NCBI RefSeq assembly: GCF_029784135.1
Contig: NC_073746.1
Location: 50,180,393-50,244,392, forward strand
Source of the DNA: Toxorhynchites rutilus septentrionalis
Taxonomy: Eukaryota > Arthropoda > Insecta > Diptera > Culicidae
DNA length: 64,000 bases
Reading direction: 5' to 3'
Part shown: piece by piece, positions 5,292 to 44,966 of the stretch
How the letters are laid out: the number at the start of each line of letters is the position of its first letter
Position numbering within the stretch: position 1 is the first letter of the stretch
Notes under the pieces: model-generated
Told to the model about the DNA's origin: nothing
Database searches by the model: none
The model's input: only the letters and a program-made list of their open reading frames with translations
Made by a program: the position numbers and the translations under genes

Positions 5292-7340
5292 TCACACACG
5301 AAGATCTATAGCTTTAAGGAAAACATATATATGGGACATGTAATCAAGGTCTAACCGAGCCAACACATCTCTCACCGGCACATTGGGCTGTCTTCCTCGG
5401 GCCCGAAGGGAGTTTTCTAAATTCGATCTGGCGACCAGATACACCTCGCACGACCAAACAATGTGCTCGATGTCGTGATAACCTTGGCCACAAACGCAGA
5501 GATTGCTGCTGGCAAGATTGAAACGAAAGAGTAGTGCATCTAGCGAACAGTGATTGGACATGAGTCGGGAGAAGGTGCGGATAAAGTCCCGACTCAAGTC
5601 TAGACTTTTGAACCACGGTTTGAGGCTAACCTTAGGGATAATCGAGTGAAACCACCGGCCCAATTCATCTTCATTCCACTTGCGTTGCCAGTTAGCGATG
5701 GTATTTTTGCGAACTAAAGAATAAAATTCATTGAAGGCGATTTGACGCTGATATATATCGCCTTCAATTGCACCTACCTTTGCCAATGAGTCAGCCCTCT
5801 CATTACCCGGAATTGAGCAATGTGAAGGGACCCAGACAAAGGTAATGACATAACAGCGTCTGGATAAAGCACTCAAAATTTCTCGTATTCTCTCAAGGAA
5901 GTACGGCGAGTGCTTTTCCGGCCTCACTGAACGGATAGCTTCGACAGAGCTAAGACTATCCGTTACAATGTAATAGTGTTCAACAGGACGTGAGGCGACG
6001 CTGTCCAGCGCCCAGTATATCGCTGCCAATTCAGCAATATATACCGAGCAAGGATTCTGAAGACTGTGTGAGGTGCTAAAAAATACGTTGAACACTCCAA
6101 ATCCTGTGGACTCATTCATAGAGGACCCATCAGTAAAGTATATATTATCACAATTGATACGCCCATACTTTGCATTGAAGATTGTAGGAACGAACCCCAA
6201 TCTAAGATAATCTGGATTTTCATGGATTTTATCCTTCATGAACAGATCGAAATGTACAGAGGAATTGATGTAGTCAGGAAAACAAACACGGTTGGGAATA
6301 TACGAAGAAGGAACAACCTGCATAGAGGTGAATTCATGATATGAACTCATGAATCTAGAATGAAAATTTAGCTCGATCAATTGCTCAAAATTTCCGATCA
6401 CCAATGGATTCATAACCTTACACCGGATGAGGAACCGAAGAGATAATAAATTGAAGCGATCTTTTAGTGGGAGTACGCCTGCCAAAACCTCGAGACTCAT
6501 GGTATGCGTTGAGGGCATACATCCCAACGCAACACGGAGACAAAGATACTGAATTCGCTCGAGTTTAATGAGGTGTGTTTTGGCAGCTGATTGAAAACAG
6601 AAACTGCCATACTCCATCACTGAGAGAATAGTTGTTCGATACAACATAATAAGATCTTTGGGATGGGCTCCCCACCAGGTGCCGGTAATTGTACGGAGAA
6701 AGTTTATTCTTTGTTGACATTTTTTACTCAGATACCTAATATGGGCCCCCCAAGTACATTTGGAGTCGAACCAGACCCCAAGATACTTGAATGACATAGC
6801 ATGAGTGATCGGTTTACCCAAAAGTTGAAGCTTTGGTTTTGCTGGTCTATGCTTCCTAGAAAAAACCATCATCTCTGTTTTCTCCGTGGAGAATTCGATC
6901 CCTAGCCCAATGGCCCAGGTTGAAAAATTGTTCAAAGTATCTTGTAAGGGTCCTTGCAGGTCGGATTCGTTTGATCCTACGACAGACACCACTCCATCAT
7001 CTGCAAGTTGTCTTAGGCTGCAATTTTGTGTAAGGCAATTGTCGATGTCGCTTACATAGAAGTTGTACAAAAGGGGGCTTAAACATGAGCCCTGGGGGAG
7101 GCCCATGTAAGAGACCCGACTTACTGCCGAATCTCCGTGAGAAAAGTTCAAATGTTTCTCACAAAGCAAATTATATAACATATTATTCAATAGAGGCGGC
7201 AGACCCCGAGAGTGTAATTTGTCTGACAAAACCTCTATTGAAACAGAATCAAAGGCCCCCTTTATGTCCAAGAATACTGAAGCCATTTGTTTTTTTCGGC
7301 GTAAGTCATTTGAATTTCTGAAGAAAGCAACGCAAGACAA
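5292..7340 (-). CDS. I-type ORF2, 3' part: reverse transcriptase, RNase H, Cys/His tail
   Basis: This frame carries the catalytic core of the element's reverse transcriptase. Motif A reads FLDIKGAFDS at about residues 23-32. Motif B is LPQGSCLSPLLYNFY. Motif C is LADD at about 112-115, a Leu variant of the usual F/Y-ADD. An RNase HI domain follows (TDGSS, the Glu of AELAAIYWAL, TDSLSS, and the Asp of GNERADSLAK), then a CxC...H...H...C tail (CVCGQGYHDIEHIVWSC). It primes cDNA synthesis at nicked target DNA. The true protein begins at ORF2's ATG at 8974. The two frames meet at a seven-T run (7290-7296 on the plus strand), where this copy is one base short of phase. The first ~17 residues of this frame are therefore an artefact. 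Confidence 0.9.
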   Translation of the reverse strand: MSCVAFFRNSNDLRRKKQMASVFLDIKGAFDSVSIEVLSDKLHSRGLPPLLNNMLYNLLCEKHLNFSHGDSAVSRVSYMGLPQGSCLSPLLYNFYVSDIDNCLTQNCSLRQLADDGVVSVVGSNESDLQGPLQDTLNNFSTWAIGLGIEFSTEKTEMMVFSRKHRPAKPKLQLLGKPITHAMSFKYLGVWFDSKCTWGAHIRYLSKKCQQRINFLRTITGTWWGAHPKDLIMLYRTTILSVMEYGSFCFQSAAKTHLIKLERIQYLCLRVALGCMPSTHTMSLEVLAGVLPLKDRFNLLSLRFLIRCKVMNPLVIGNFEQLIELNFHSRFMSSYHEFTSMQVVPSSYIPNRVCFPDYINSSVHFDLFMKDKIHENPDYLRLGFVPTIFNAKYGRINCDNIYFTDGSSMNESTGFGVFNVFFSTSHSLQNPCSVYIAELAAIYWALDSVASRPVEHYYIVTDSLSSVEAIRSVRPEKHSPYFLERIREILSALSRRCYVITFVWVPSHCSIPGNERADSLAKVGAIEGDIYQRQIAFNEFYSLVRKNTIANWQRKWNEDELGRWFHSIIPKVSLKPWFKSLDLSRDFIRTFSRLMSNHCSLDALLFRFNLASSNLCVCGQGYHDIEHIVWSCEVYLVARSNLENSLRARGRQPNVPVRDVLARLDLDYMSHIYVFLKAIDLRV

Positions 7341-8974
7341 TCATTCGTCCCCTTGCCCCTGCGGAACCCATATTTTATATCTGAGAGTAGGCCATTCGTT
7401 TCAACCCATCGATCAAGGCGAAACAAGATCATTTTCTCCAACAATTTCCGTATACAAGACAGCATTGCTATTGGGCGGTACGAATTGAAGTCGGACGCGG
7501 GTTTTCCGGGTTTTTGAACAGCTATAACTCGTACTTGTCTCCAATCATCTGGAACAATATTATGCTCCAGAAACCGATTGAATAAATTCAACAAGCGATG
7601 TTTCGCCACATCAGGGAGGTTTTTCAGCAAGTTGAACTTAATTCTATCCGATCCCGGAGCAGAATTGTTACATAAAAGCAGAGCAAGAGAGAATTCTACC
7701 ATCGAAAACTCGGAATCAAGATCGCACCTACCTTGTGGTATATCTCGAACAATTTTTTGCACAGGAGCGGAATCAGGACAAACCTTCCGTGCAAAATTCA
7801 AAATCCATCGATGTGAATATTCTTCGCTTTCATTCGTTGAAGAGCGATTTCTCATGTTTCGAGCCACTTTCCATAATTTTTTCATTGACGTTTCTCGTGA
7901 CAAACCTCCCACGAAATTTCGCCAATAAGCACGTTTTTTCCCTTTGATCAAGTTTTTAAATTGATTTTCAAGGTCCAAATACGTCTGAAAATTTTCAGGG
8001 GTTCCACGTTTCCGAAAAGCTTTAAATGCATTCGATTTTTCTACATAAAGCTTGGAACATTGGCTATCCCACCATAGATTGGGAGGCCTTCGACGAATAG
8101 TGGAGCCTGGGATGGGTTTCGTTTGAGCGCGAACCGCGCTGTCATAGATCAAACGAGAAAGGAAGTTATACTCCTCCAATGGAGGTAAACCATCTCTGGA
8201 ATTGATGGCTAGAGCAATCGCGTCCGCATATTTTTTCCAGTCAATGTGTCTTGTGAGGTCATATGCCATGTTTATAGATTCAGAAGAATTCGACCCAATG
8301 GTGATGGAAATTTTGATTGGCAAGTGATCACTACCGTTGGGGTCCTGGATTACATTCCACTTGCAATCTAACGATAGTGAATTCGAGCAAAGCGAGAGGT
8401 CAAGAGCACTTGGGTTAGCAGGAGGTTTAGGCACACGTGTTGTTTCCCCAGTGTTCAAAACGGTCATATTGAAGTTGTTACAAAGGTCATATATCAACAA
8501 TGAACGATTGTCGTCGTACTGTTCCCCCCAGGCAGTTCCGTGAGAGTTGAAGTCTCCCAAGATCAATCGTGGCTCAGGAAGGAGTGAGCACATGTCATCA
8601 AGTTGTTTGCGGCTAACCGCAGCTCTCGGAGGCCAATACAAGCTGACAATACAGAGGTCTTTGCCTCTGATGTTTGCATGACAAGCAACAGCTTCGATCC
8701 CTCCAATAGGTGGAAGGTCAATTCGAAAAAATGAGTGGCACTTATTGATCCCCAATAGTACCCCTCCGTATCTGTCATCGCGGTCCAAGCGTATAATATT
8801 AAAATCGTGGAAAGAGATATCATCTCGCGAAGAAAGCCAAGTTTCGGACAGAGCAAAAACATCACAATTGAAGTTATGAGTTAAAAATTTGAATGTATCC
8901 AATTTAGGGATAAGACTACGACAATTCCACTGTAAAACAGTGATATCTCCGACCTCTCTATCTAAATTAGACAT
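7262..8974 (-). CDS. I-type ORF2, 5' part: AP-like endonuclease and N-terminal reverse transcriptase
   Basis: The ATG at 8974-8972 overlaps the last codons of ORF1 (ATGTCTAA), the usual tight ORF1/ORF2 coupling in this superfamily. The apurinic-type endonuclease shows QWNCRSL near the start, SETWL, LGDFNSHGTAWG and the terminal SDHLPIKI block, so all catalytic blocks are present. It nicks target DNA. The first reverse-transcriptase blocks follow (VIAVQKPGKP, NSYRPIAMLSC, YGFRRGKGTNDCLALL). The frame then ends early at 7262 because of a one-base change in the A run complementary to 7290-7296; the remaining domains continue in the frame of 5292-7340. Length of this part is 570 residues. Start choice rests on the overlap with ORF1 and an intact endonuclease N-terminus. 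Confidence 0.9.
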   Translation of the reverse strand: MSNLDREVGDITVLQWNCRSLIPKLDTFKFLTHNFNCDVFALSETWLSSRDDISFHDFNIIRLDRDDRYGGVLLGINKCHSFFRIDLPPIGGIEAVACHANIRGKDLCIVSLYWPPRAAVSRKQLDDMCSLLPEPRLILGDFNSHGTAWGEQYDDNRSLLIYDLCNNFNMTVLNTGETTRVPKPPANPSALDLSLCSNSLSLDCKWNVIQDPNGSDHLPIKISITIGSNSSESINMAYDLTRHIDWKKYADAIALAINSRDGLPPLEEYNFLSRLIYDSAVRAQTKPIPGSTIRRRPPNLWWDSQCSKLYVEKSNAFKAFRKRGTPENFQTYLDLENQFKNLIKGKKRAYWRNFVGGLSRETSMKKLWKVARNMRNRSSTNESEEYSHRWILNFARKVCPDSAPVQKIVRDIPQGRCDLDSEFSMVEFSLALLLCNNSAPGSDRIKFNLLKNLPDVAKHRLLNLFNRFLEHNIVPDDWRQVRVIAVQKPGKPASDFNSYRPIAMLSCIRKLLEKMILFRLDRWVETNGLLSDIKYGFRRGKGTNDCLALLSSEIQMTYAEKNKWLQYSWT

Positions 8975-10508
8975 CAAGAGAGATAATCATTGCAAGGAGG
9001 GGCCATGTTTGCATCAATTGCTGTAAAATTGTCTTGATTACTGGAAGCATTGAGAAGACAAGGGTTCTGATGGAGTCGGAAACATTAAAACACTTGAAGA
9101 TTTGATCCAAAAGGTCAGACAACTTTATAAATCCCGATTGGGAAGTTGAGCTGGACGGAAAAACAGGGACAGTTGGGGTTTTTGATGTCCCCTCGAGTGC
9201 TGGGTCGTTCGAAGGTGAACTATTCCCACGGAAGCCAGGAGGAACCTGATTTTGCTTGTCCGCTGCACTCGATTTTTTAGGCAAGCTAACTGGGGGTATC
9301 ACCGGGGGGACTTGTTCTTGAACTTTGGGAGTGGTCACATTTTTGCGCCGGGGATTCCCTTTGAAAATAAACGGTGTGCCCCCGCTAGCTGTGTCCGCTT
9401 CCATTTCATCAACTGGCAACGTGGAAAAGGTATTGTGTGTTGAGATTGGTTGTTGTTGTTGTTGGGCCAGTGGAGAAGCGCCCTTTAAAATTTCCGCAAA
9501 AGTGCGCTTCGAGCGTTCGTTTAAAGAGCGCTTCTGTTTCTCCCAGCGACTCTTGTAAGTTTCACAAGCTGAGAGCGCGTGTGGGGATCCTCCGCAATAT
9601 GGACACTTATGCTCAGTCGCACTGCAGGATTTCCCCTCATGTTGCTCTCCGCAAGTGGCACAGCGCTCCTTGTTGGCACAATAATCTGAAGTGTGACCAA
9701 CTGACTTGCATTTGTTGCAAGTCATGGGCTTTGGCACGAAGAGTCGCACAGGTAATCTCAATTTGTCCACCATTACGTAGTCAGGGAGGGCGGCACCAGC
9801 AAAGGTGACTCGAAACGAGTCGGACGGCGTAAATTTCGTTTGGTCCCCATCATGGGAGAGTTTCCCCAGTTGGCAACAGTCCAAGATCTTTACTTCCATT
9901 GAGGGAAGCTTCTTGAACTTGCCTTTTCCTTCTTTTTTTATTTGTTCGCTCGTCAGACCCGTTTCAGTTATCACCCCCTCAATTTCTACGTTATGGGAGG
10001 GTATAAATTTTCTATATTCGAGAGTGAAGTGTTGGTCAGCAACAATCTCGTTTGCGTGTTTCCGTTCATTCACGACATCCCGCAATTTGTTCGGTATAAC
10101 CCTGCGAATTTCAGATACAGAAGTGTATCTGGCCAGATCTTTCATGATCTGAATCACGTTAAGGCTTTTTCCTTTTGGTTTTGGCCGGAGGAAAACAACC
10201 CACGGGCCAGTTCCAGGTGCATCTTCTGGATAAACTCTGACACGTGGAGCGGAAACAACAGAGGGAGAAGACGAGGACGAGGACGAGGATTGGGTTGGAT
10301 CGGAAACATCAGAAGGGGGAAGCGAAATCGATGATGGGAGAGGGGGAGTGGAAGTAACAGTCGGTTCAGAAGGGAGGCTTGCTATTTTCTTAGAGGGGGG
10401 CTTGGAAGGATGAGCAGATTCGTCCCCAGAAGAATTATCTTCTTTTTGAGGGACTCGTTTATGTTTTTTCCCAGATCTTCAATGGGATTCATTATCGGAG
10501 ATCTCCAT
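8967..10508 (-). CDS. I-type ORF1: RNA-binding Gag-like protein with zinc knuckles (one nonsense codon)
   Basis: Read from the ATG at 10508 this is a 513-codon frame ending at TAA 8967. A Ser/Pro-rich N-terminus is followed by a conserved RNA-binding block typical of I elements (GPWVVFLRP, then SLNVIQIMKDLARY, with EYRKFIPSHNVEIEGVI further on). Three Cys-rich knuckles come next (CNKCKSVGHTSDYC, CATCGEQHEGKSC, CPYCGGSPHALSAC), then a long Gln/Pro/Ser-rich tail. It is expected to coat the element RNA. The only defect seen is TGA at codon 10 (plus-strand 10479-10481). Because of that stop the longest unbroken frame starts only near 10157 with a GTG, and I take the upstream ATG as the ancestral start. 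Confidence 0.85.
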
Positions 10509-32281: not shown

Positions 32282-33862
32282 TTGTCTGAAACACACATTG
32301 TTGAAATAGAATCATTTGATCAGTATAGTATTCCGGGATATAATATTGCTGTGTGTTTATCACATTCGAGGCACACTGGCGGTGTTGCTATTTATGTCAA
32401 AGAATCAGTTCAATTCAATCTTCGCCTCAACGAAGTGTTTGATGGTAACTGGTTCTTGGGCATTACAGTTGAACATGGCATGGAGATGGGTAATTTTGGT
32501 GTTTTGTATCATAGTCCCAGCTCAAGCGACTTGCGTTTTGTTGAAATTTTAGAAAACTGGCTTGAAATGTTCCTTGACTCTAGCAAATTGAATATATTAG
32601 CTGGTGATTTCAATATTAATTGGCGTGATGACTACAATTCGAACCATTTGAAGCGTGTATCCGATTTCTTCAATTTGAAACAAACAGTACATGAATTTAC
32701 GCGCATTTCCAGGCACAGTAAAACTTTAATTGATCATGTTTATTCCAATTTTGATACTATTTACACAGTCACGGATACCAATTTGAAAATAACCGATCAT
32801 GAGACTTTAATTATCAATATTGTAGATAATCTCGTGGTAAATGAAAATGTTGTGAAATTAAAGTGCTGGAGGAAATATTCGAAGCATGCTGTTTCGAATC
32901 TCGTAGTGAGAAGCCTGGATTTTCCATTCGAGGTCGGTAATTTAGATGAATCATCAGCTGTTCTAACTAATACCTTGAAAGAGTGTACAAATCGGCTTGT
33001 TACGCAAAAATTTGTTCCTATGAAAAACTCGAACAGCTGGTTCAATTTGGATCTTTTACGCCTTAAACGTGAGAGAGACAGATGGTGCAAGAAATTTTGT
33101 AGAACAAATGATGGAAATCATTGGAATACGTACACAAACGCGCGCAATATATATTCACAGTCGATTAAGAAAACTCGTTGTGAATATATTCAGAGGAAGA
33201 TTGATCTGCATCAAAGCAACAGCAAGGAGTTATGGAAAATTTTGAAATCTTTATTAAAACCTAGTAATAGCAAACCGCGGTCCATAACTTTTAATGGCAC
33301 ACTTGAACAGTCTGAACAGGCTATAGCATCTAAGTTTAACGATTATTTTGTCAATAGTGTTTCATTGATCAATCAGTCCATTGAATTGGTTGATGAACCT
33401 GATGAAATAAAACAGCCGGTTAACAGTAGTTGTAGATTTGAAAGTTTTCACCCAATTACATTAAATGAACTTAGAACTATTTGCTTTTCTTTAGGAAAAA
33501 CGGCTGAAGTGGATAATGTCAATGCTAGAGTTATTCAAGATTGCTTTCATGTCATCGATCATATCTTGCTGGACCTTATTAATAAATCTTTGCTAACTGG
33601 GGATGTGCCTAAGGTGTGGAAGGAATCTTCAATAGTTCCAATTCAAAAGGTTGCTGGAACGATTAAAGCCGAAGAGTTTCGTCCCATCAATATGTTGCAC
33701 ACGCTAGAGAAAATATTAGAAGTAGTCGTTAAAGGCCAGCTGCTGGAATATTTAAATTATTTTTTTGATAATTTTTCAAGCGTTGGGAGTCCTCCTTTTC
33801 TTGAACTGTTTTCTAATATGTTATTGATAAATTTTATGTCAACTCGTCTTTGGAGTGAATAG
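32282..33862 (+). pseudogene. Non-LTR retrotransposon ORF2 fragment: endonuclease and start of reverse transcriptase
   Basis: An unbroken frame of 526 codons opens without a credible ATG; upstream sequence is cut near 32255. The AP-type endonuclease shows SETHI near residue 3, GGVAIYV, GDFNINW near residue 105, LIDHVYSN and ITDHETL. The early reverse-transcriptase blocks follow (SSIVPIQK, FRPINMLHTLEKILE), after which the frame runs into an unrelated dispersed repeat near 33815. The catalytic core with motifs A to C is missing. The style fits the CR1/L2/Jockey group rather than the I element. A 5'- and 3'-truncated copy whose frame is still open suggests fairly recent origin. Confidence 0.8.
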
Positions 33863-35854: not shown

Positions 35855-36736
35855 TTTATACATGAAAATGTTATTAGTTAAATATTAAAAGTAATTTTTG
35901 AAAGAATACAAAGTTGTTATCAGCATTTTTTATCTTGTAAAGGTGCCCATCTTCCGATGTATAGATGACTTGTTGGAAATTTGAAACTTTGGCCTGTTTG
36001 GCTCTAGCTGTCCGCATGGACTCTCTTATAACCTCCCAGGGTCGTCTATGGTCTCTGCAGGTTGTGTAAAGGGAAAACACCACGTTCTTAAGTTTCCTAA
36101 TACGACGGACTTTTTATTATAAATTCATTCCTGTCCTATTTCCCTAGCTCCTCACTTTTTACAGGGTACTCACATATGTAATGTGTTAATGTCAGGGCCC
36201 GCCGTGATCCTTCCTTGCTTGCTCGCATTGGCTCGGTTATCCGGTGGAGATCTAGATCCGGTTCGTCACTGAGTTGTCTTAAGGGGTTCTCTTCCCGGGA
36301 TTTCAGCTCTGGTTCTCGGTTCGATCGATGATCCACAACGTCTCACCAGGAACAAACATCTGATGAATTTCGATTTCGATGAACCTCAGTATTAAGCCGC
36401 CACACAACTTCGTGTTGATTAGTGGGACGGCTTACGACTCCCAATTAGTGAAGGGACTTGATCTTTTGGGAAATTTATTCCACGAAAAAAAACTTTTTTG
36501 TTTTTGGAGTCGTTTATAACACGTCTGGTCTTTGTGCGGTCGCTCCAGTCAGTCCCGAATCGATCCCACCGGAGCTCTCTCAACCCGCCAAAATCTACTC
36601 GCTCGGGTTCCTTTTACCGCCTTCAGTCGTACCAACCTGTGCGATGTTTGAATGTGTCGGGTAATGTTGATTGTGCTGTTTACAAACCTTGATTCGTGTT
36701 GTGTATGACTATGTGCCGTCCTTTTAACCCTAGATA
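35855..36736. other. No recognisable gene
   Basis: Short frames near 35874-36083 and 36136-36336 on the minus strand are basic and Ser/Arg-rich but match no family I recognise. The region forms the left flank of the errantivirus and ends in GATATATA. Confidence 0.4.
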
Positions 36737-36740
36737 TATA

Positions 36741-37170
36741 AGTTAACACCCACATCCCCATGTACTACACGAACAGATCAACTAACCACCGAACAACAGC
36801 GGTGACCCACTTCCAATAGAGCTAACGCATCAGTTCTCCGGGCGACACATGAACAAACAGCGCATCATCATTGACGGCGCATCGACCTGAATATTTGCAC
36901 CGTCAACATCATCGATACCAACGACCCATCGAAACATCGACCTATCGTTCGATACACAATCCTAAGGCTCAGCGCTTTGGCCAGGTCGAAGTCCACCACG
37001 ATCGAGCTCACCGGAACCAAACTGGAGAATCAGCATAACCGTACGCCGCGTTAGGGAACTCAGCTCAGGCTAATTAGTAAGGAATAAAGTCAGTCATAAT
37101 TCGATGTTCAAGTGAGGTAGTTCGTTTATAATTTTTTAAAAACCTTCCCAAAGGCCTAACTTCTTTAACT
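36741..37170 (+). repeat. Errantivirus 5' LTR (430 bp)
   Basis: Direct repeat of 44537-44966. It contains a poly(A) signal AATAAA at 37083-37088. There is no good TATA box upstream; ATCAGTTCTC near 36829 resembles the TCAGT initiator used by TATA-less insect LTR promoters. It ends TTCTTTAACT, its last T being shared with the primer-binding site. Confidence 0.93.
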
Positions 37171-37186
37171 GGCGCAGTCGGTAGGA
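37170..37186 (+). promoter_or_regulatory. Primer-binding site, tRNA-Ser
   Basis: TGGCGCAGTCGGTAGGA begins at the last base of the 5' LTR. It is complementary to the 3' end of an insect tRNA-Ser, with apparently one mismatch to my memory of that tRNA. Overlap of primer site and LTR by one base is common in errantiviruses. Confidence 0.8.
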
Positions 37187-37413
37187 TGCGATTACCGCTC
37201 AAGTGTTTCGAAATAGATATGAAATAGTGATCGAATTGATTAAGTGCAGAACAATATCGGATTAACAGAAAATAGAAATAATCTAGTGCAAAGTGAAGTT
37301 TAACTGAATAACGAGAAAAAGAGGCCCAAATACAAAAGACAATACGTGTGCTTCGAAAAAGACTTGAACATTACTAATGTTTGTTTCAAAGAAGAAATTT
37401 ATCAGATCAATCA

Positions 37414-37472
37414 ATGAAGGTGCTATCGGGAAGAACCACTCTGCGAATATTAGTTTTATTCTCCATGTAAGT
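37414..37472 (+). CDS. Leader exon: probable start codon and signal-peptide half of Env, ending at a splice donor
   Basis: ATG at 37414 opens 17 codons with a basic start (MKVLSGRTTLR) and then a run of hydrophobic residues, the shape of a signal peptide. At 37467 it meets GTAAGT, a near-consensus donor. Without splicing the frame stops at once (TAA, 37468-37470). The exon ends two bases into a codon. The base at 42800, just after the candidate acceptor, completes that codon and leads into the env frame. So a 5.3-kb intron covering gag and pol would give env its initiation codon. In unspliced RNA it is a short upstream ORF that could dampen Gag translation. Confidence 0.7.
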
Positions 37473-37606
37473 AATTCTCCACAATTATTATCTTATACCT
37501 TCTATATAACTAAAGTTAAAACACCCAATGTGGCAGAATTGATATCTGCATAAATATTAATAATATCATTATCAAAAGAAATTAAACGTATGTGCAAGTA
37601 GACCAC

Positions 37607-37838
37607 CTCGCGTAGCGAGTAACTAGTGTGTAACAAACAGAGAGCATATCTGTAGTTCCACTAGTGCGGAAAGTTCTTATCAGACCATCCAACGGTGAAG
37701 TGCTAATCTCACACCGCGTAGGAGACTGATCGCATAGCAGAGTGAATATCTGTGGTAGATGCGATCGGTACAATAAGATTTCCCCCGGTCGAAAGCACAG
37801 TGTCTACACAGCAGAGAGAATATCTGCGCCGTGTGTAG
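37607..37838 (+). promoter_or_regulatory. Leader stem-loop array (packaging or translation signal candidate)
   Basis: Three hairpins share the apical sequence CAGAGWGMATATCTG at 37638-37652, 37738-37752 and 37812-37826, each able to form a CAGA/TCTG stem. Outer stems differ: ACTAGTG/CACTAGT (37622-37628, 37659-37665), GATCGCAT/ATGCGATC (37728-37735, 37759-37766) and CTACACA/TGTGTAG (37804-37810, 37832-37838). A small hairpin CTCGC-GTA-GCGAG precedes them at 37607-37619. The array lies after the env splice donor and before the gag ATG, so it would be present only in full-length RNA. Function is inferred from position. Confidence 0.75.
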
Positions 37839-37952
37839 CCAGCCGCGTTTAGATTGTAAGAAACAATCGCCATATAAAATATCGCGTTTAGATTTAAGAA
37901 AATTCTACAGAAAAACTAATCAAATTTCTTCACCCCCGAGATATAGGATTTG

Positions 37953-39299
37953 ATGGACCGTTTCCATCCCTATAATTTAAGAAATCGAGAACTGAACACG
38001 GAAATGAACAATTCTCCTAACCCAATACCTCCTCCTCCACCTCAACCGAATCCTTTACTACCCCCTAGACAGAACATGAATCGAATTGAAGAAACAAACA
38101 GAATATTCGAACAGGCTGAAAAGATTACGAAATCTCTCCAAACACCCCAAGCGGTGAGAGAACTGCAACCATTCGACGGCAATCCCGTTAAGTTGCATAG
38201 TTTCATTAGGTCCGTCGAACATTTTATGCCATTCATGGAACCTATTAAAAATACACCTTTCGAGCAAATTTGGCTTCAAGCTATAAGAAGCAAAATAATT
38301 AATGAAGCGGACCAAGTCCTAGAAACTTATGGAACTTCTCTCAACTGGGATGAGATTAAAGCAAATCTCATCGCTTATTATAATGATAAACGTGACTCAG
38401 TCACACTTACCCGCGAGCTGTTTCAACTTCAGCAAAACGGATCAGTTGAACAATTTTTTGGACAAGTACAAAATCTTCTATCCTTACTAATTAATAATAC
38501 TAATATTTCTCCAAGAGAAGAGAATATTAAAAATGATAGAAACTCGACGCATAAGGAAAATGCTCTACAGGTTTTCCTAGCAGGGCTGAAAGAGCCGATT
38601 GGAGGGAACGTGCGTGCACGTCAACCCAGAAATATAAAACAAGCATTTGATGCTGCGGTAGAAGAACGTAACTATCAAAGTCGTACGGGCTTAAGTAAAC
38701 CGACTTTAACACCACGTTTACCCAAACCAATACATTTTTATCCTCAATTACAAACTCGTCAACCGATGTTTAATCATCGACCATTTATTCCCCGTCAACC
38801 ATATCAATCATATCAGCATGAAAGTATTCCAACCAGACCAAACTTTACGCCTCGTTTTCCAGCTCCACCTCAGGGCAATAATACCAACAATGGACAACTT
38901 CGGAAAGCATTACCGAGTCCAATGAATGCTGATAAATCCATTCGCTCTAAATATGTAAATTACGTTAATAGACCACCGCATAATTATAATGCAAGAAGCC
39001 AATTCTTTCCTGCTGTCCCACCGAGACCAGCACGGATAACGGAATTAAGAAATATTGAACAAACTCAACAAAACGTTCAAGAGTATCAATACGAGTATCA
39101 ATGTTATCCTTTGGCAAGTTATCACCACGATTACTACCCAACGCCAATGGATAATTATTCATACGAAGAAGACCATTCAGAAATACATTTAGAAAATGAG
39201 CAAGAAACTTCCAATGAGACCTACGAACAAGAAACTTCTAGCGAAGCAGTCGATAACCTAAATTTTCAACTGGAAAGCACATCCCATTTCCCCAGGTAA
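37953..39299 (+). CDS. gag: Errantivirus Gag polyprotein
   Basis: 448 residues from the ATG at 37953 (the preceding in-frame TTG is not a likely start). The protein forms the particle core around genomic RNA. It opens with FHPYNLRNREL and a Pro-rich stretch, then has the errantivirus Gag core (LQPFDGNPVKLHSFIRSVEH near residue 70, with later LQVFLAGLKEPIGGNVRARQP). A basic, Pro/Gln/Tyr-rich tail follows. There is no CCHC zinc knuckle, as in other errantiviruses of this type, where basic residues bind RNA. It ends at TAA 39297-39299. The pol frame opens 43 bases earlier in the -1 phase, so Pol is probably made by -1 frameshifting. The leader between LTR and this ATG is 782 nt. Confidence 0.93.
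   Translation: MDRFHPYNLRNRELNTEMNNSPNPIPPPPPQPNPLLPPRQNMNRIEETNRIFEQAEKITKSLQTPQAVRELQPFDGNPVKLHSFIRSVEHFMPFMEPIKNTPFEQIWLQAIRSKIINEADQVLETYGTSLNWDEIKANLIAYYNDKRDSVTLTRELFQLQQNGSVEQFFGQVQNLLSLLINNTNISPREENIKNDRNSTHKENALQVFLAGLKEPIGGNVRARQPRNIKQAFDAAVEERNYQSRTGLSKPTLTPRLPKPIHFYPQLQTRQPMFNHRPFIPRQPYQSYQHESIPTRPNFTPRFPAPPQGNNTNNGQLRKALPSPMNADKSIRSKYVNYVNRPPHNYNARSQFFPAVPPRPARITELRNIEQTQQNVQEYQYEYQCYPLASYHHDYYPTPMDNYSYEEDHSEIHLENEQETSNETYEQETSSEAVDNLNFQLESTSHFPR
39257..39299 (+). promoter_or_regulatory. gag-pol overlap with candidate -1 slippery site
   Basis: The pol frame is open from 39257 while gag ends at 39299. TTTCCCC at 39287-39293, read in gag phase as T-TTC-CCC, fits the X-XXY-YYZ slip pattern and sits just before the gag stop. 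Tandem slippage would place ribosomes in the pol frame. C-type slip sites are unusual in animals, so the exact position is uncertain even though a -1 shift is expected for this genus. Confidence 0.5.
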
Positions 39300-39322: not shown

Positions 39323-42300
39323 ATGGAAATTCCCACACGTCAAGGGTTTGGATTGAAATTATTGATAGATACGGGAGCTAACAAAAATTATTTATGCCCC
39401 CGATTTGTGAAAAAATCCTTTGCGCTGCCTACACCAACTGTTGTCTCCAACATCTCAGGCACTCACAAAATTGAACGATATGTCGACTTCAATCCATTTC
39501 CCGACTTAACTGATAAATCGTTCAAATTTCATATTTTTGATTTTCATAATTTTTTCCACGGCCTTATTGGGTATGAAACGCTTCAGGAACTTAAAGCGAA
39601 GATTGAAACAGATGACAATTCCATAACCATATTAGGAACAAAACTTCAGATGCTCAGAAAACATCCAGAACCTTTCTCAAAGGAAATTTCAAGAGAAACC
39701 ATTCATAATATAGAGATACCAGTTTCCGAGCAATCAGGTGATTTTTTACTAGAAGATGATCTCGAAATCAATACAAACCTTTTCATATGTGCTGGTTTAT
39801 ACCAAGCAGTAGGTCATAAAGCCATTGTCAGTCTCAAGAACAGTTCAACTGAGAATCAAACACTTTCATTAGATTATCCACTCGAGATCACTCTTAATAA
39901 CTTTGAATGCTTGGTTGAGCAAAACGAATTCAATTTTTTGGAAGCTCGTCCTGACAGATTCAGAAAACTTATGGACCAACTTCGTCTGGATCATTTAAAC
40001 AGAGAAGAGAAAAATAGTTTGATCAATGTCATTGAGGAAAATCAAGATATTTTTCACCTCGACAACGAACCCCTTACAGCTACTAATGTTGTGAAACATA
40101 AAATTTTGACCCATGATGAGATACCTGTGTATCAGAAAAGCTATAGGTATCCTCATTGCCATAAAGAGGAAGTCGGCAAACAAATTCAGAAAATGCTTGA
40201 TGAAAACATAATTCGTCCTTCTACGTCACCATGGAATTCACCCATTTGGGTCGTTCCGAAGAAAGCGGATGCTGCAGGTATTCAAAAATGGAGAATCGTC
40301 GTTGATTACAGAAAGCTCAATGCTAAAACTGTGGATGATAAATTCCCCATACCGAATATCACGGATATCCTAGATAAATTAGGGAGAAGTAAATATTTTA
40401 CAACCCTAGATTTAGCTTCGGGATTCCACCAAATTCTGATGGAAAAAGACGATATTCAAAAAACTGCATTTTCAACTGAGAACGGCCACTACGAATATCT
40501 AAGAATGCCATTCGGGCTGAAAAACGCCCCGGCAACATTTCAGAGAACAATGAATGCTGTGCTGGTAGGCCTAGCCGGATTTATCTGCCTAGTGTATATG
40601 GACGATATCATTGTATTCAGCAGCAGTTTACAAGAACACTGCAACAACTTAAATAAAATTTTCGCTGCTCTTAAAAAAGCCAACTTAAAAATACAGCTCG
40701 ACAAAAGTGAATTTTTGAAGAAAGAGGTCTCCTTCCTCGGTCACGTGGTGAATGAAGAAGGTGTAAAACCAAACCCAGAAAAAATTGAAGTTATCCAAAA
40801 TTGGCCAATTCCCAAAACCGAGAAGGACATTAAATCCTTCTTAGGAACACTGGGATACTATAGAAAATTCATAAAGGATTTCAGCCGGATAACGAAACCG
40901 CTAACACAATGTCTTCGGAAAAATGAGAAAGTAGAACATACTCCAGAATTTCTAAAAGCATTCAACAAGTGCAAACAGATACTTTCTAGCAGCGCTATTC
41001 TAATACACCCAGATTTCGAAAAAACCTTCATATTGACAACAGATGCATCCAAATACGCAATAGGAGCTGTTCTCTCACAAGGTCCAATCGGAAGAGATAA
41101 ACCTGTTGCTTTTGCATCGAGAACACTCAGTCAAACCGAAGAAAAGTACTCCACTATTGAGAAGGAGTTACTAGCTATTTATTGGGCAACCAAATATTTC
41201 CGACCGTACCTTTTCGGAAATAAATTCATTTTATACACAGATCACAAGCCGCTTACTTGCGCCGTGAACTTGAAAGATCCATCAAGTAAAATTGCCAGAT
41301 GGATGATTGCTTTAATGGACTATTCCTACGATATAAGATATCGTGCCGGAAAACAAAATGTCGTTGCCGATGGCCTCTCTAGAATTCCCCAAAATTTAAA
41401 TCTGAATGAAGAACAAAATGATTCTTCATCAGACGCTGCTACGCAACATTCGGCAGACACCGATGACTCGGAATTTATCGCATGTACCGAAAAACCGGTA
41501 AACACTTTTTCCAATCAGATCATTTTGAAAATAGATGGAACTGAGAGTGAGACCACCGGAGAACAAGTTTTTCCCAAAGTCCTAAGACACACGTTTACAA
41601 AAGTGAATTTTGGTGTACCAATATTACTAAGAATATTCAAAGAATTCATGGATCCTAAAAGAGTAAATTGCATTTACTGCCCAGAAAATCTCATCAACAC
41701 CCTTCAAATTGTGTATAAAAACTATTTTTCTCGCGTCAAAACGTTTAAAGTAGTTATTTCACAAAAGTTCTTAATTGACTTAAAAACTGAAGAAGAACAG
41801 AATGAAGTCATAAATACAACACATACAAGAGCTCACAGAGGCATCGAAGAAAATCTGATGGCTATCAGCCAGAAATTCTACTTCCCGAACATGAAAAGGA
41901 AAGTTAGAACACACGTCACATTGTGCAATACGTGTAAAACTGCTAAATATGAGCGACATCCTTATAAATTGAACCTAGCCCAAACTCCAATACCTAAAAA
42001 GCCGCTAGACATAGTTCATGTTGATATATTCATATGTCAACCAAACACGTTCATATCCGTGGTAGACAAATTATCGAAGTTCGGAATGCTTTTTCCAATT
42101 AAATCGAGATCGATTCCTGACGTCCGTTCAGGACTGACAAAATTCTTCTCAACATATGGGATACCCAGACTTTTGGTCAGTGACAATGAACCAGCACTAA
42201 AGTCTGTTGAAGTAAGAGGCATGTTAGAAGAACTAGGAATTGAAACATATTTCACACCATCTAATAAAAGCGAAGTGAATGGAATCGTTGAACGATTTCA

Positions 42301-42586
42301 CTCAACAATTGCAGAAATGTTTCGCTGTTGTAGATCGAAACATGAGGGATTAAGTAAGAAAGAGTTGTTTAGAGTCACTGTAGCACTTTATAACGACACT
42401 ATTCACTCTTCAACCAAGATGCGACCCAAAGAAGTATTCTTTGGAATAAAAGAGGGAGAGGTGAGACCGAGTAACATTGAAGAAATTGTTAGGAAAAGGA
42501 ATGAAATATACAATGAAGCAACATTAGCTCTCATTAAAAAAACAAAAACAAGATTTACAGCACCACAACAAAAACAAGGAAGCTGA
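39323..42586 (+). CDS. pol: Errantivirus Pol: protease, reverse transcriptase, RNase H, integrase
   Basis: 1,087 codons from the first ATG; the functional product probably enters from gag upstream. Protease: LIDTGA, catalytic Asp at residue 16. Reverse transcriptase: MPFGLKNAPATFQ and YMDD at 425-428. RNase H: TDAS with Asp 574 and EKELLAI. Integrase: zinc site His 834, His 838, Cys 868, Cys 871; catalytic Asp 901, Asp 954 and Glu 990 with 35 residues between the last two (DD35E). All catalytic residues are present. The frame stops at TGA 42584, while a lysine-rich stretch resembling the usual integrase tail lies in the +1 phase directly after. Polyprotein is cleaved by its own protease and acts inside the viral particle and nucleus. 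Confidence 0.95.
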   Translation: MEIPTRQGFGLKLLIDTGANKNYLCPRFVKKSFALPTPTVVSNISGTHKIERYVDFNPFPDLTDKSFKFHIFDFHNFFHGLIGYETLQELKAKIETDDNSITILGTKLQMLRKHPEPFSKEISRETIHNIEIPVSEQSGDFLLEDDLEINTNLFICAGLYQAVGHKAIVSLKNSSTENQTLSLDYPLEITLNNFECLVEQNEFNFLEARPDRFRKLMDQLRLDHLNREEKNSLINVIEENQDIFHLDNEPLTATNVVKHKILTHDEIPVYQKSYRYPHCHKEEVGKQIQKMLDENIIRPSTSPWNSPIWVVPKKADAAGIQKWRIVVDYRKLNAKTVDDKFPIPNITDILDKLGRSKYFTTLDLASGFHQILMEKDDIQKTAFSTENGHYEYLRMPFGLKNAPATFQRTMNAVLVGLAGFICLVYMDDIIVFSSSLQEHCNNLNKIFAALKKANLKIQLDKSEFLKKEVSFLGHVVNEEGVKPNPEKIEVIQNWPIPKTEKDIKSFLGTLGYYRKFIKDFSRITKPLTQCLRKNEKVEHTPEFLKAFNKCKQILSSSAILIHPDFEKTFILTTDASKYAIGAVLSQGPIGRDKPVAFASRTLSQTEEKYSTIEKELLAIYWATKYFRPYLFGNKFILYTDHKPLTCAVNLKDPSSKIARWMIALMDYSYDIRYRAGKQNVVADGLSRIPQNLNLNEEQNDSSSDAATQHSADTDDSEFIACTEKPVNTFSNQIILKIDGTESETTGEQVFPKVLRHTFTKVNFGVPILLRIFKEFMDPKRVNCIYCPENLINTLQIVYKNYFSRVKTFKVVISQKFLIDLKTEEEQNEVINTTHTRAHRGIEENLMAISQKFYFPNMKRKVRTHVTLCNTCKTAKYERHPYKLNLAQTPIPKKPLDIVHVDIFICQPNTFISVVDKLSKFGMLFPIKSRSIPDVRSGLTKFFSTYGIPRLLVSDNEPALKSVEVRGMLEELGIETYFTPSNKSEVNGIVERFHSTIAEMFRCCRSKHEGLSKKELFRVTVALYNDTIHSSTKMRPKEVFFGIKEGEVRPSNIEEIVRKRNEIYNEATLALIKKTKTRFTAPQQKQGS

Positions 42587-42755
42587 CCCATCACTGGAAG
42601 TGGACGAAACTGTATACGTCGCGCGCCAAGGGGTCAAAAGTAAAACAAAGGATAAGTATAAACGATATCAAATCGCAAGAGATAACACAAAAACCTTCCA
42701 AGATCAGAATGGAAGAACGATACATAAAACAAAAATAAGACGTCAAAGAAAATGA
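42543..42755 (+). pseudogene. Displaced C-terminal tail of integrase
   Basis: In the +1 phase relative to pol, an open stretch runs to TGA at 42753-42755 and contains VDETVYVARQG followed by a Lys/Arg-rich end (KIRRQRK). Errantiviral integrases usually close with such a basic segment containing a VYV-type strand, so this is probably the native end of Pol. The phase change most likely lies at the seven-A run 42536-42542. It could be a mutation or an assembly error. This stretch shares its phase with env but is separated from it by the TGA. Confidence 0.7.
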
Positions 42756-42785
42756 CGTCTCGAAACCCAAAGTAGTACTCACATA

Positions 42786-42799
42786 TTTCTCTATTCCAG
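42786..42799 (+). promoter_or_regulatory. Candidate env splice acceptor
   Basis: TTTCTCTATTCCAG is a pyrimidine tract ending in AG. The env frame upstream of it has no ATG back to the TGA at 42753, so env needs a spliced-in start. The phase after this AG (one base, then the env frame) matches the donor at 37467. Confidence 0.7.
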
Positions 42800-44465
42800 A
42801 TTAGCCCTTGATGTTACAGCAGAAGTGACGATAACAGACCTCTCACGACATGATGGAATAATAGCATTTAGCGAGAGAGAAGCGAAGATTATCACATCTC
42901 AACATTTCCATCTCCACATCGTGGATTTGGAAAAGTTCGAAAGTAGTTTCACCAACCTCCAGTATACGTTACACCAGTTCGAACGACAAAATTTCACGAA
43001 ACCATACCTTAAAACATTGGACATTAGGATGAAACAAATTTCCGACAATTACAAACAGTTGAAACCCATACACCGACAGAAACGAGGACTCTTAAACCCA
43101 TTAGGAACGTTTATCAAATCATTGACCGGCAATTTAGACGACGACGATTTACAATTAATCCGACAAACGATAGAAAATTCAAAAACCAAAACCAACACAC
43201 TTATTGACAACAACAACCGACAAATCAGAATCAATCAGGAATTCGAAGCTAAAATTAACAATTTAATTAGCCACGTAAATGAAAACCAAATTGAGGTTTT
43301 AAGAAGAATATCGAGAATTGCCAATAACGTAAACACAGAATATGAAAATCATTTAAAAGGAATAGTTCACGATCTATTTTTCAATCTAGATCTACTAAAC
43401 AACCAACTAAGAGACATTTTTGAAATTGTACAACTATCGAAAATAGGGATTTTATCTAGGGCAATATTAAACAATAATGAAACAGAGTTTGTACTAGAAA
43501 AGTTAGAAGAACAAAATATTCACATTAACAATATTGACCAAATTTATGAATTTCTTAGTATAGAAACACATCATGAAAGTACAAAAATAATATTTGTGAT
43601 CAAGATCCCAATATTTATGTCAGAAAAGTTCCAATATATTAGATTTGAAACATTACCAAGAAAAAACAGAATTATATCGACACCCTACAACTCAGCTGTT
43701 CTGAGTAAAACACTGACACTAGGAATAAATAACGAATGTACAATTGTTGAAAATTATAGAATTTGCCAAAGACAGGAGCTCACGAATTTAACAGGCGACG
43801 GTTGTATCGACAACGCATTAAGAGGAATCAACGCATCTTGCCCCTACGAGGAACATCGCATCGGAATGGACATTAAGCCTATCGACGACCACACGCTGAT
43901 CGTGAGAAACGCTGATAAATCCGTTCTTCTGGATTCAAATTGCAACATCAAATCGAGACAGATAACGGGAACTCTACTGATCAAATATCCAAACTGCTCT
44001 GTTTCAATCAATGGAAGCAAATACGACGACAAGAGGACAATTAATCATCACGAGATCAGAACTATTTCAACAATTGGAGTGAACTTTCAGCCAACAGTAA
44101 TCTTCAACCAACCTGATCTGCAACAAGTAAACCTGCTTAGAATTGAAAACCGAGACCACATCCATAAACTGCAAAGAGACCACATAACACTGCAACATAC
44201 TACGATTGGATTCCTGATTCCACTCGCAGCCATGATCATAGGATTGGCAATCATGAGCCTGAAGAAACATATTGGAGTATACACCACACCACGAAATGTA
44301 TCAACAGAGGTAAAACCCTATGCTAACACAAAAAGCATGACATCTTCCCTCTCCTCAGATCAAACCCAACAAGACAAATCACTAGAAAACCCAGCACAAA
44401 CAACTTCAACGATACTCGCAGAAGTTCATCTATGCAACAATCAACAACAGCGGTTTCAATTCTAG
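42800..44465 (+). CDS. env: Errantivirus envelope glycoprotein (baculovirus F-like)
   Basis: The frame is open from 42756 but has no ATG near its start; the first start-like codon is GTG at 42825, from which 546 residues are counted. The body begins after the acceptor at 42799. A furin-type site RQKR at 43074-43085 precedes GLLNPLGTFIKSLTGNLD, which looks like the fusion peptide of insect errantivirus Env and the related baculovirus F proteins. A coiled-coil-prone, Asn/Gln-rich segment follows. A Cys-rich ectodomain end and a single membrane anchor (GFLIPLAAMIIGLAIMSL, 44208-44261) precede a ~65-residue cytoplasmic tail. Role: membrane fusion of particles. No internal stop or frameshift was seen. 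Confidence 0.9.
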
Positions 44466-44536: not shown

Positions 44537-44964
44537 AGTTAACACCCACATCCCCATGTACTACACGAACAGATCAACTAACCACCGAACAACAGCGGTG
44601 ACCCACTTCCAATAGAGCTAACGCATCAGTTCTCCGGGCGACACATGAACAAACAGCGCATCATCATTGACGGCGCATCGACCTGAATATTTGCACCGTC
44701 AACATCATCGATACCAACGACCCATCGAAACATCGACCTATCGTTCGATACACAATCCTAAGGCTCAGCGCTTTGGCCAGGTCGAAGTCCACCACGATCG
44801 AGCTCACCGGAACCAAACTGGAGAATCAGCATAACCGTACGCCGCGTTAGGGAACTCAGCTCAGGCTAATTAGTAAGGAATAAAGTCAGTCATAATTCGA
44901 TGTTCAAGTGAGGTAGTTCGTTTATAATTTTTTAAAAACCTTCCCAAAGGCCTAACTTCTTTAA

Positions 44965-44966
<2 letters not shown>
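44537..44966 (+). repeat. Errantivirus 3' LTR (430 bp)
   Basis: Same length as the 5' LTR and identical as far as can be read by eye. Poly(A) signal AATAAA at 44879-44884. It is followed directly by TATA, the target duplication, and then by a long TA tract. Confidence 0.93.

Follow-up and report, generated by a model that had tools for sequence, protein, structure and literature searches.

Three predicted RNA hairpins that share one core sequence and differ completely in their outer stems lie in the leader of an errantivirus in the window (the whole 64,000-nucleotide stretch of DNA that was analyzed), and they are very probably a functional RNA element of some kind. The best explanation is that they form a repeated recognition element of genomic RNA whose loops are read by the element's Gag for packaging, and we give this explanation roughly even chances. 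It draws on the position, predicted structure and repetition of the hairpins, on the conservation of the surrounding block in a diverged relative (locus L089) and on the occurrence of the same design in other families, all established at the level of sequence. That the loop is the recognized part, Gag the reader and packaging the outcome is what we infer from these observations. Overall, the interpretation in the original prediction was partly supported.

The window element is a complete errantivirus, as had been predicted. Pfam matches identify gag, pol with RT, RNase H and integrase, and a Gypsy-type env of the F type, all between LTRs. The element is young; its two 430 bp LTRs are identical to each other, and TATA flanks it on either side. 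The closest named proteins to its env are of mosquito origin, the env of Wyeomyia smithii being 78% identical. The features of the element, all on the + strand, are as follows.

36741-37170, + strand: 5' LTR (AGTT...AACT, 430 bp), by identity to 44537-44966
37170-37181, + strand: primer binding site TGGCGCAGTCGG, from sequence
37414-37468, + strand: short ATG exon (37414-37466) and predicted env splice donor GT (37467-37468), from sequence
37533-37549, + strand: weaker fourth hairpin (stem of 5 bp, loop AUUGAUA), without outer stem
37587-37882, + strand: block that can be aligned with the diverged relative L089, with changes at 16 of 291 sites
37622-37665, + strand: unit 1, outer arms 37622-37628 and 37659-37665
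37725-37769, + strand: unit 2, outer arms 37725-37735 and 37759-37769
37804-37838, + strand: unit 3, outer arms 37804-37810 and 37832-37838
37953-39299, + strand: gag ORF, 448 codons, from Pfam and sequence
39323-42586, + strand: pol ORF (RT, RNase H, integrase), from Pfam
42738-42760, + strand: hairpin AGACGTCA-AAGAAAA-TGACGTCT, perfect 8 bp stem, from sequence
42798-42799, + strand: inferred env splice acceptor AG, from sequence
42825-44465, + strand: env main exon ORF (Pfam Gypsy, Baculo_F)
44537-44966, + strand: 3' LTR

The primer binding site is one that we take to be of the tRNA-Ser type. The predicted env donor is GTAAGT at 37467, and the AG at 42798-42799 would open the env exon in a compatible phase, both sites being predicted from sequence and the phase being arithmetic on coordinates. 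In unspliced RNA the ATG exon at 37414 reads as an 18-codon upstream ORF, and its ATG is one of 8 upstream ATGs in the leader. A short peptide-coding exon upstream of gag is an arrangement reported for the ZAM and Beagle subclades in excerpts of PMC12992720. The placement of the hairpins between the env donor and the gag ATG, as originally described, agrees with the predicted sites. Because the hairpins lie inside the predicted env intron, they would be present only in unspliced RNA, and leader position together with absence from spliced RNA is the placement that a packaging signal would be expected to have.

The core, CAGAGWGMATATCTG, occurs in three exact copies, all on the + strand (37638-37652, 37738-37752 and 37812-37826), so the original count of three cores within 190 nt was correct. 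Each unit has a 5 bp inner stem with a 7-nt loop, a bulge on the 3' side and an outer stem of 7-11 bp. The apical hairpins span 37637-37653 in unit 1 (loop GAGCAUA, 37642-37648), 37737-37753 in unit 2 (loop GUGAAUA, 37742-37748) and 37811-37827 in unit 3 (loop GAGAAUA, 37816-37822). The arms pair perfectly over 7 bp in unit 1 (ACTAGTG / CACTAGT), over 8 bp in unit 2 (GATCGCAT, 37728-37735 / ATGCGATC, 37759-37766) and over 7 bp in unit 3 (CTACACA / TGTGTAG); in unit 2 the outer stem extends to 11 bp (37725-37769) with one U.G pair included. A weaker fourth copy of the core, CAGAATTGATATCTG, lies at 37534 and has no outer stem. The fifth pair of the inner stem varies among the four copies (G-C, A-U, G.U and G-C). 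Eight bases of the env exon (37437-37444) are complementary to 37737-37744 in the 5' half of the apical hairpin of unit 2, possibly by chance.

The perfect outer stems of 7, 8 and 7 bp and of unrelated sequence, which were at the center of the original prediction, withstand comparison with chance. With shuffled flanks, the probability of arms this long at most 10 nt from the core was 0.0061, 0.00135 and 0.0067 for the three units, with a product of 5.5e-8, and all three arm pairs appeared jointly in 0 of 20,000 shuffles. Among 9,129 real window positions, repeats included, arms of at least 7 bp were found at 2.1% and of at least 8 bp at 0.95%. The longest Watson-Crick run between arms of different units is 5, compared with 7-8 for true partners. 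If G-U pairs are allowed, the 5' flank of unit 3 with the 3' flank of unit 2 reaches 8, one above unit 3's own 7. Recent simple duplication of the three units was rejected as a source of the arms, since the arms have no common sequence and local similarity is mostly confined to the core.

Folding predictions were consistent with paired outer arms, which had pairing probabilities of 0.6-1.0 across three sequence contexts. The inner stem of unit 2 had a predicted pairing of only about 0.41-0.45, and the weak fourth hairpin 0.01-0.29 in context. Of 200 shuffles, 3, 0 and 3 folded as well as units 1, 2 and 3, respectively, compared with 30 for the weak fourth copy, and the 441-nt region 37510-37950 had a folding z of -3.17. 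Stems of 6 bp or longer with 7-nt loops were not enriched in the window leader (0, compared with 0.87 in shuffles) because the inner stems there have 5 bp. In energy, the region as a whole folds better on the minus strand (-117.0, compared with -106.7 on the plus strand), and the same holds for unit 3 and the weak fourth copy. Unit 2 is the reverse (-19.7 on the plus strand, -12.1 on the minus), due to its U.G pairs; two of these form in + strand RNA only. Thus, the strand preference rests mainly on unit 2. An Rfam search of 36500-38100 gave no match above the cut-off and one below it (snR85, E 0.55, minus strand).

The original prediction attributed the arms to selection on RNA structure, with pairing kept while the sequence changes. 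The G.U pairs of unit 2 and the better folding of three of the four units than shuffles are the RNA-like features that agree with this. The second part would amount to covariation by descent only if the arms of the three units were homologous. Dimerisation, which was also proposed, received little support, there being no long palindromic loop. Support for selection comes instead from conservation of the whole block in L089 and from the same design with other stems in other families.

L089 (G000:C1:43808004-43811018, minus strand) retains LTRs, the primer binding site, the leader, the first 0.14 kb or so of gag and the terminal part of env including the polypurine tract. No pol match was found in it; pol, env and the greater part of gag are gone, while all three hairpins are kept. 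Between its two LTRs, identity is 96.6% over 203 nt. When the best-matching stretch of each region was chosen by local alignment, divergence from the window was 5.5% in the hairpin block (37587-37882), compared with 11-20% in LTR, leader and gag. For example, 46 of 412 sites differ in the 5' LTR (Fisher p 0.010 against the hairpin block), 24 of 119 in the initial stretch of the leader (p 2.6e-5) and 24 of 135 in the gag start (p 1.2e-4); 32 of 202 differ in the 3' LTR and 6 of 40 in the 40 nt preceding gag. The leader immediately upstream of 37587 hardly aligns with L089, so that the conserved block starts abruptly. LTR and 5' UTR are given as the most divergent parts of these elements in excerpts of PMC12992720. 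From this alignment, the block would either be under constraint or have been exchanged by recombination. Within it, the expectation that the arms would be better kept than their surroundings failed in this one diverged relative: 3 of 50 sites changed in arms, 1 of 51 in cores and 12 of 195 in the rest, which is not a significant difference (p 0.59). Two end pairs were lost (37622/37665 and the pair at 37832), and one pair became G.U (37637).

A search for leaders of the L089 type (best 40 of 79 candidates scored) gave one full copy, L089 itself, and two fragments, L185 and L186, in both of which the hairpins are absent. With one copy only, L089 does not represent a parasite family that proliferates. 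Further diverged copies of its hairpin block may exist in the genome. Among loci that have lost coding genes, the array is kept in the single loci L089, L146 and L149 (the last two described below) and is missing from the two L089-type fragments. At about 1580-1970 of the reverse complement, L089 also carries an insertion between AT-rich repeats, which resembles a tRNA-derived short element.

The original prediction also looked to sibling copies for arms that keep their pairing. The core CAGAGWGMATATCTG has 240 exact matches in 902.6 Mb of genome (0 for the reversed control), and among the 100 places listed, 96 lay in 32 full triples, 2 came from a partly listed triple and 2 stood alone. A leader search gave 81 candidates, of which the best 40 were scored and were 100% identical after rounding. 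There are about 80 siblings, near-identical where compared. Of 50 stretches, one being the window's own copy, 47 aligned over at least 400 nt; these showed 12 distinct places of difference from the window, only one of them in an arm, and 35 carried the single change at 37908. The burst is therefore too young to test covariation of the arms. In 11 of the 47 (L091, L094, L096, L098-L101, L103, L105, L106 and L110), 77 nt are duplicated in tandem from a point inside unit 3 onward, which doubles the 3' arm but not the 5' arm. The single cores at L107 and L108 were rejected as relatives because they had neither outer arms nor an alignable leader. In public viral contigs, 82 stretches with a 16-base core, once each, were taken as chance; the RT piece, the env alignment and the primer binding site pattern found no relative among these contigs, and prokaryote genome contigs gave no match.

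Other errantivirus families of this genome were sampled with the env protein P0011 (best 77 of 1,809 candidates), so the families seen are a part of those present. Twenty stretches upstream of env were examined, with a primer binding site in 12 and none in 8. They formed five groups: the window group (L182), L164/L165, L170/L178, L171/L172/L174 and L176/L179/L181/L183. The four other leaders align with the window leader in short pieces at most, and CAGA-N7-TCTG after the primer binding site was not found in any of these four groups. In each of the four, a GTAAGT donor precedes this part of the leader. For the nearest env relative, L162 (58% identical), there was no leader in stretches L177 and L184.

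Two of these leader groups, the L164 and L176 types, carry hairpin arrays in the same place; their 7-nt loop, RYGAAAA, is related to that of the window, and their stems differ. This observation is new; env proteins of families with related loops are only about 44% identical. In L164, four 80-nt repeats hold eight hairpins in all (AGTTCC-AUGAAAA-GGAATT and AATTCC-GCGAAAA-GGAATT), and L176 has three with GCGAAAA or ACGAAAA loops, 76-78 nt apart, plus a weak fourth. The number of hairpin pairs is 4 in L164, 3 in L165 and 5 in L149. The joint loop motif over families is R-N-G-M-A-W-A, and its window version is GWGMAUA. After the donor, motif loops sit on stems of at least 4 bp in 3 of 4 occurrences in the window, 8 of 9 in L164 and 3 of 5 in L176; each count was reached by 0 of 500 shuffles, which measure the coupling of motif and stem rather than an independent discovery, as the motif was derived from the leaders where it was counted. 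Motif hairpins on the minus strand or with the reversed motif numbered 0 in all five leaders. Two groups count against the best explanation: L170 has one GUGAAAA hairpin, which 11 of 500 shuffles reach, and L171 has no motif hairpin after the donor. Predicted pairing was 0.73-0.99 in L176, 0.11-0.90 in L164, where tandem copies compete and lower it, and 0.27-0.28 in L170. By eye, L171 repeats another motif, ACCAARC, between short U-rich and GAAA arms. In addition, L176, L179, L181 and L183 have a separate tandem repeat of about 33 nt, GAACAACGAACAAAGTGAAGTTATCAGTC, right after the primer binding site and before the donor.

Genome-wide, TTCCRYGAAAAGGAA has 59 matches, 48 of them in 11 clusters of 3 to 10 and 11 single. 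Only the clustering is informative, since the reversed control had 47 matches whose places were unlisted. Nine of the 11 clusters lie behind a primer binding site and GTAAGT donor (L146, L149, L164, L165, L176, L179, L181, L183 and L187). The tenth, L167, precedes a gag match without a primer binding site in the stretch, and the eleventh, C1:89143268, has an env match 12 kb downstream of it. Both L146 and L149 are forms with deletions that keep primer binding site, donor and env, with 3 and 10 hairpins, respectively. No pol match was found in the 1.6 kb examined, and a gag fragment (L146) or none (L149) precedes env.

A related loop of fixed size, free stems, repetition and placement in genomic RNA only together read as a protein-binding site. 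According to the best explanation, the three units would be copies of one RNA recognition element that is present in full-length genomic RNA and removed from spliced env mRNA. The recognized part would be the 7-nt loop R-N-G-M-A-W-A, held out by the stem; the sequence of the stem would matter little, and repetition would raise avidity. The most likely reader would be the Gag of this same element, which would pick out unspliced RNA to be packaged.

Mason-Pfizer monkey virus has, near its 3' end, a constitutive transport element that binds NXF1/TAP and exports unspliced, intron-containing RNA. A similar role for the leader array, in which the repeated loops would recruit a host factor that takes intron-containing genomic RNA out of the nucleus, is unlikely in our estimation. 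The array lies inside the predicted env intron and would mark exactly the RNA that must leave unspliced, and related loops in families whose env proteins have diverged so far fit a host reader as well as Gag; the 3' location of the known transport element speaks against it. Excerpts of a 2014 review (PMC4276936) describe both the psi and the export signals of gypsy as unknown, and they report two internal entry sites in gypsy. An entry site or shunt that brings ribosomes to the gag ATG would account for a stable leader with 8 upstream ATGs. Such a translational role is nevertheless quite improbable, as the repetition of identical loops while the stems vary is more in keeping with a binding site than with ribosome entry, and the array is kept in the coding-deleted L089, L146 and L149, although part of gag remains in L146 and three single loci carry little weight.

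Control of splicing, in which the array would restrain splicing at the env donor or acceptor and thereby determine what fraction of the RNA stays genomic, seems very improbable. The array begins 66-155 nt past the donor (weak hairpin at 37533, unit 1 at 37622), and the hairpin at 42738-42760, whose loop AAGAAAA fits the leader motif, is 38 nt upstream of the env acceptor. However, no acceptor-side hairpin of this type was seen in the examined stretches of other families, and L164, L176 and L146 have a fitting hairpin before the donor as well (CCCA-ACGAAAA-TGGG in both L164 and L176). We regard as hardly credible that the repeats are DNA-level sites, such as an insulator like the gypsy Su(Hw) repeats, with arms arising by chance or as cruciforms. 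Every site is in one orientation, and the gypsy insulator, which consists of 12 Su(Hw) repeats in the 5' UTR according to the same excerpts (PMC4276936), occupies the same position. Against this, the unrelated outer arms are far beyond chance, the two U.G pairs of unit 2 form only in + strand RNA and the loops recur on different stems in other families. The gypsy insulator resembles the window array in being a repeated leader motif; it is bound as double-stranded DNA, and no hairpins are claimed for it, whereas the window array consists of predicted RNA hairpins.

The array and its reading as a packaging element recognized by Gag can be compared with known systems. In MMTV a purine loop in the packaging signal (psi) is read by Pr77Gag, and PMC8096270 describes this binding as distinguishing unspliced RNA. 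The window array likewise consists of leader hairpins with purine-rich loops. It differs from the MMTV psi in its repeated 7-nt loop, unrelated stems, location after the donor and Gag without a zinc knuckle (the window element's Gag has only one cysteine), and it is known from sequence alone. Tandem repeats occur in the 5' UTRs of ZAM (307 bp, 2.3 copies) and Tirant (102 bp, 2-6 copies; PMC5408687), and like the arrays of L164, L165 and L149 they are errantivirus leader repeats of variable copy number. Those repeats are described as DNA repeats with a role that is unclear or HP1a-binding, whereas here they form predicted hairpins with common loops. BARE1 and BARE2 of barley have packaging and dimerisation signals, and the partner without Gag keeps its packaging signals, as stated in excerpts of PMC3735527. 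L089 similarly lacks most coding sequence and keeps the array, a candidate packaging signal, but BARE belongs to the Copia superfamily and BARE2 is abundant, unlike the single-copy L089.

A literature search, with most subscription journals outside its coverage, found no paper on an errantivirus packaging signal. A compact repeated element found again in several families of a single genome would be a first handle on the packaging or export signals of errantiviruses, and it would illustrate how a Gag that has no zinc knuckles may recognize its own RNA. A broader proposal, which we put forward tentatively and with considerable doubt, is an errantivirus-wide leader code in which arrayed R-N-G-M-A-W-A 7-nt loops, on free stems and in changing copy number, are read as the packaging signal by Gag without zinc knuckles, the loop being the conserved word with a dialect per family. 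If true, this would also explain unexplained repeats in Drosophila errantivirus leaders. Lastly, the window contains pieces of non-LTR retrotransposons with endonuclease, RT and RNase H domains at 5292-10157 (- strand) and 32282-33862 (+ strand).
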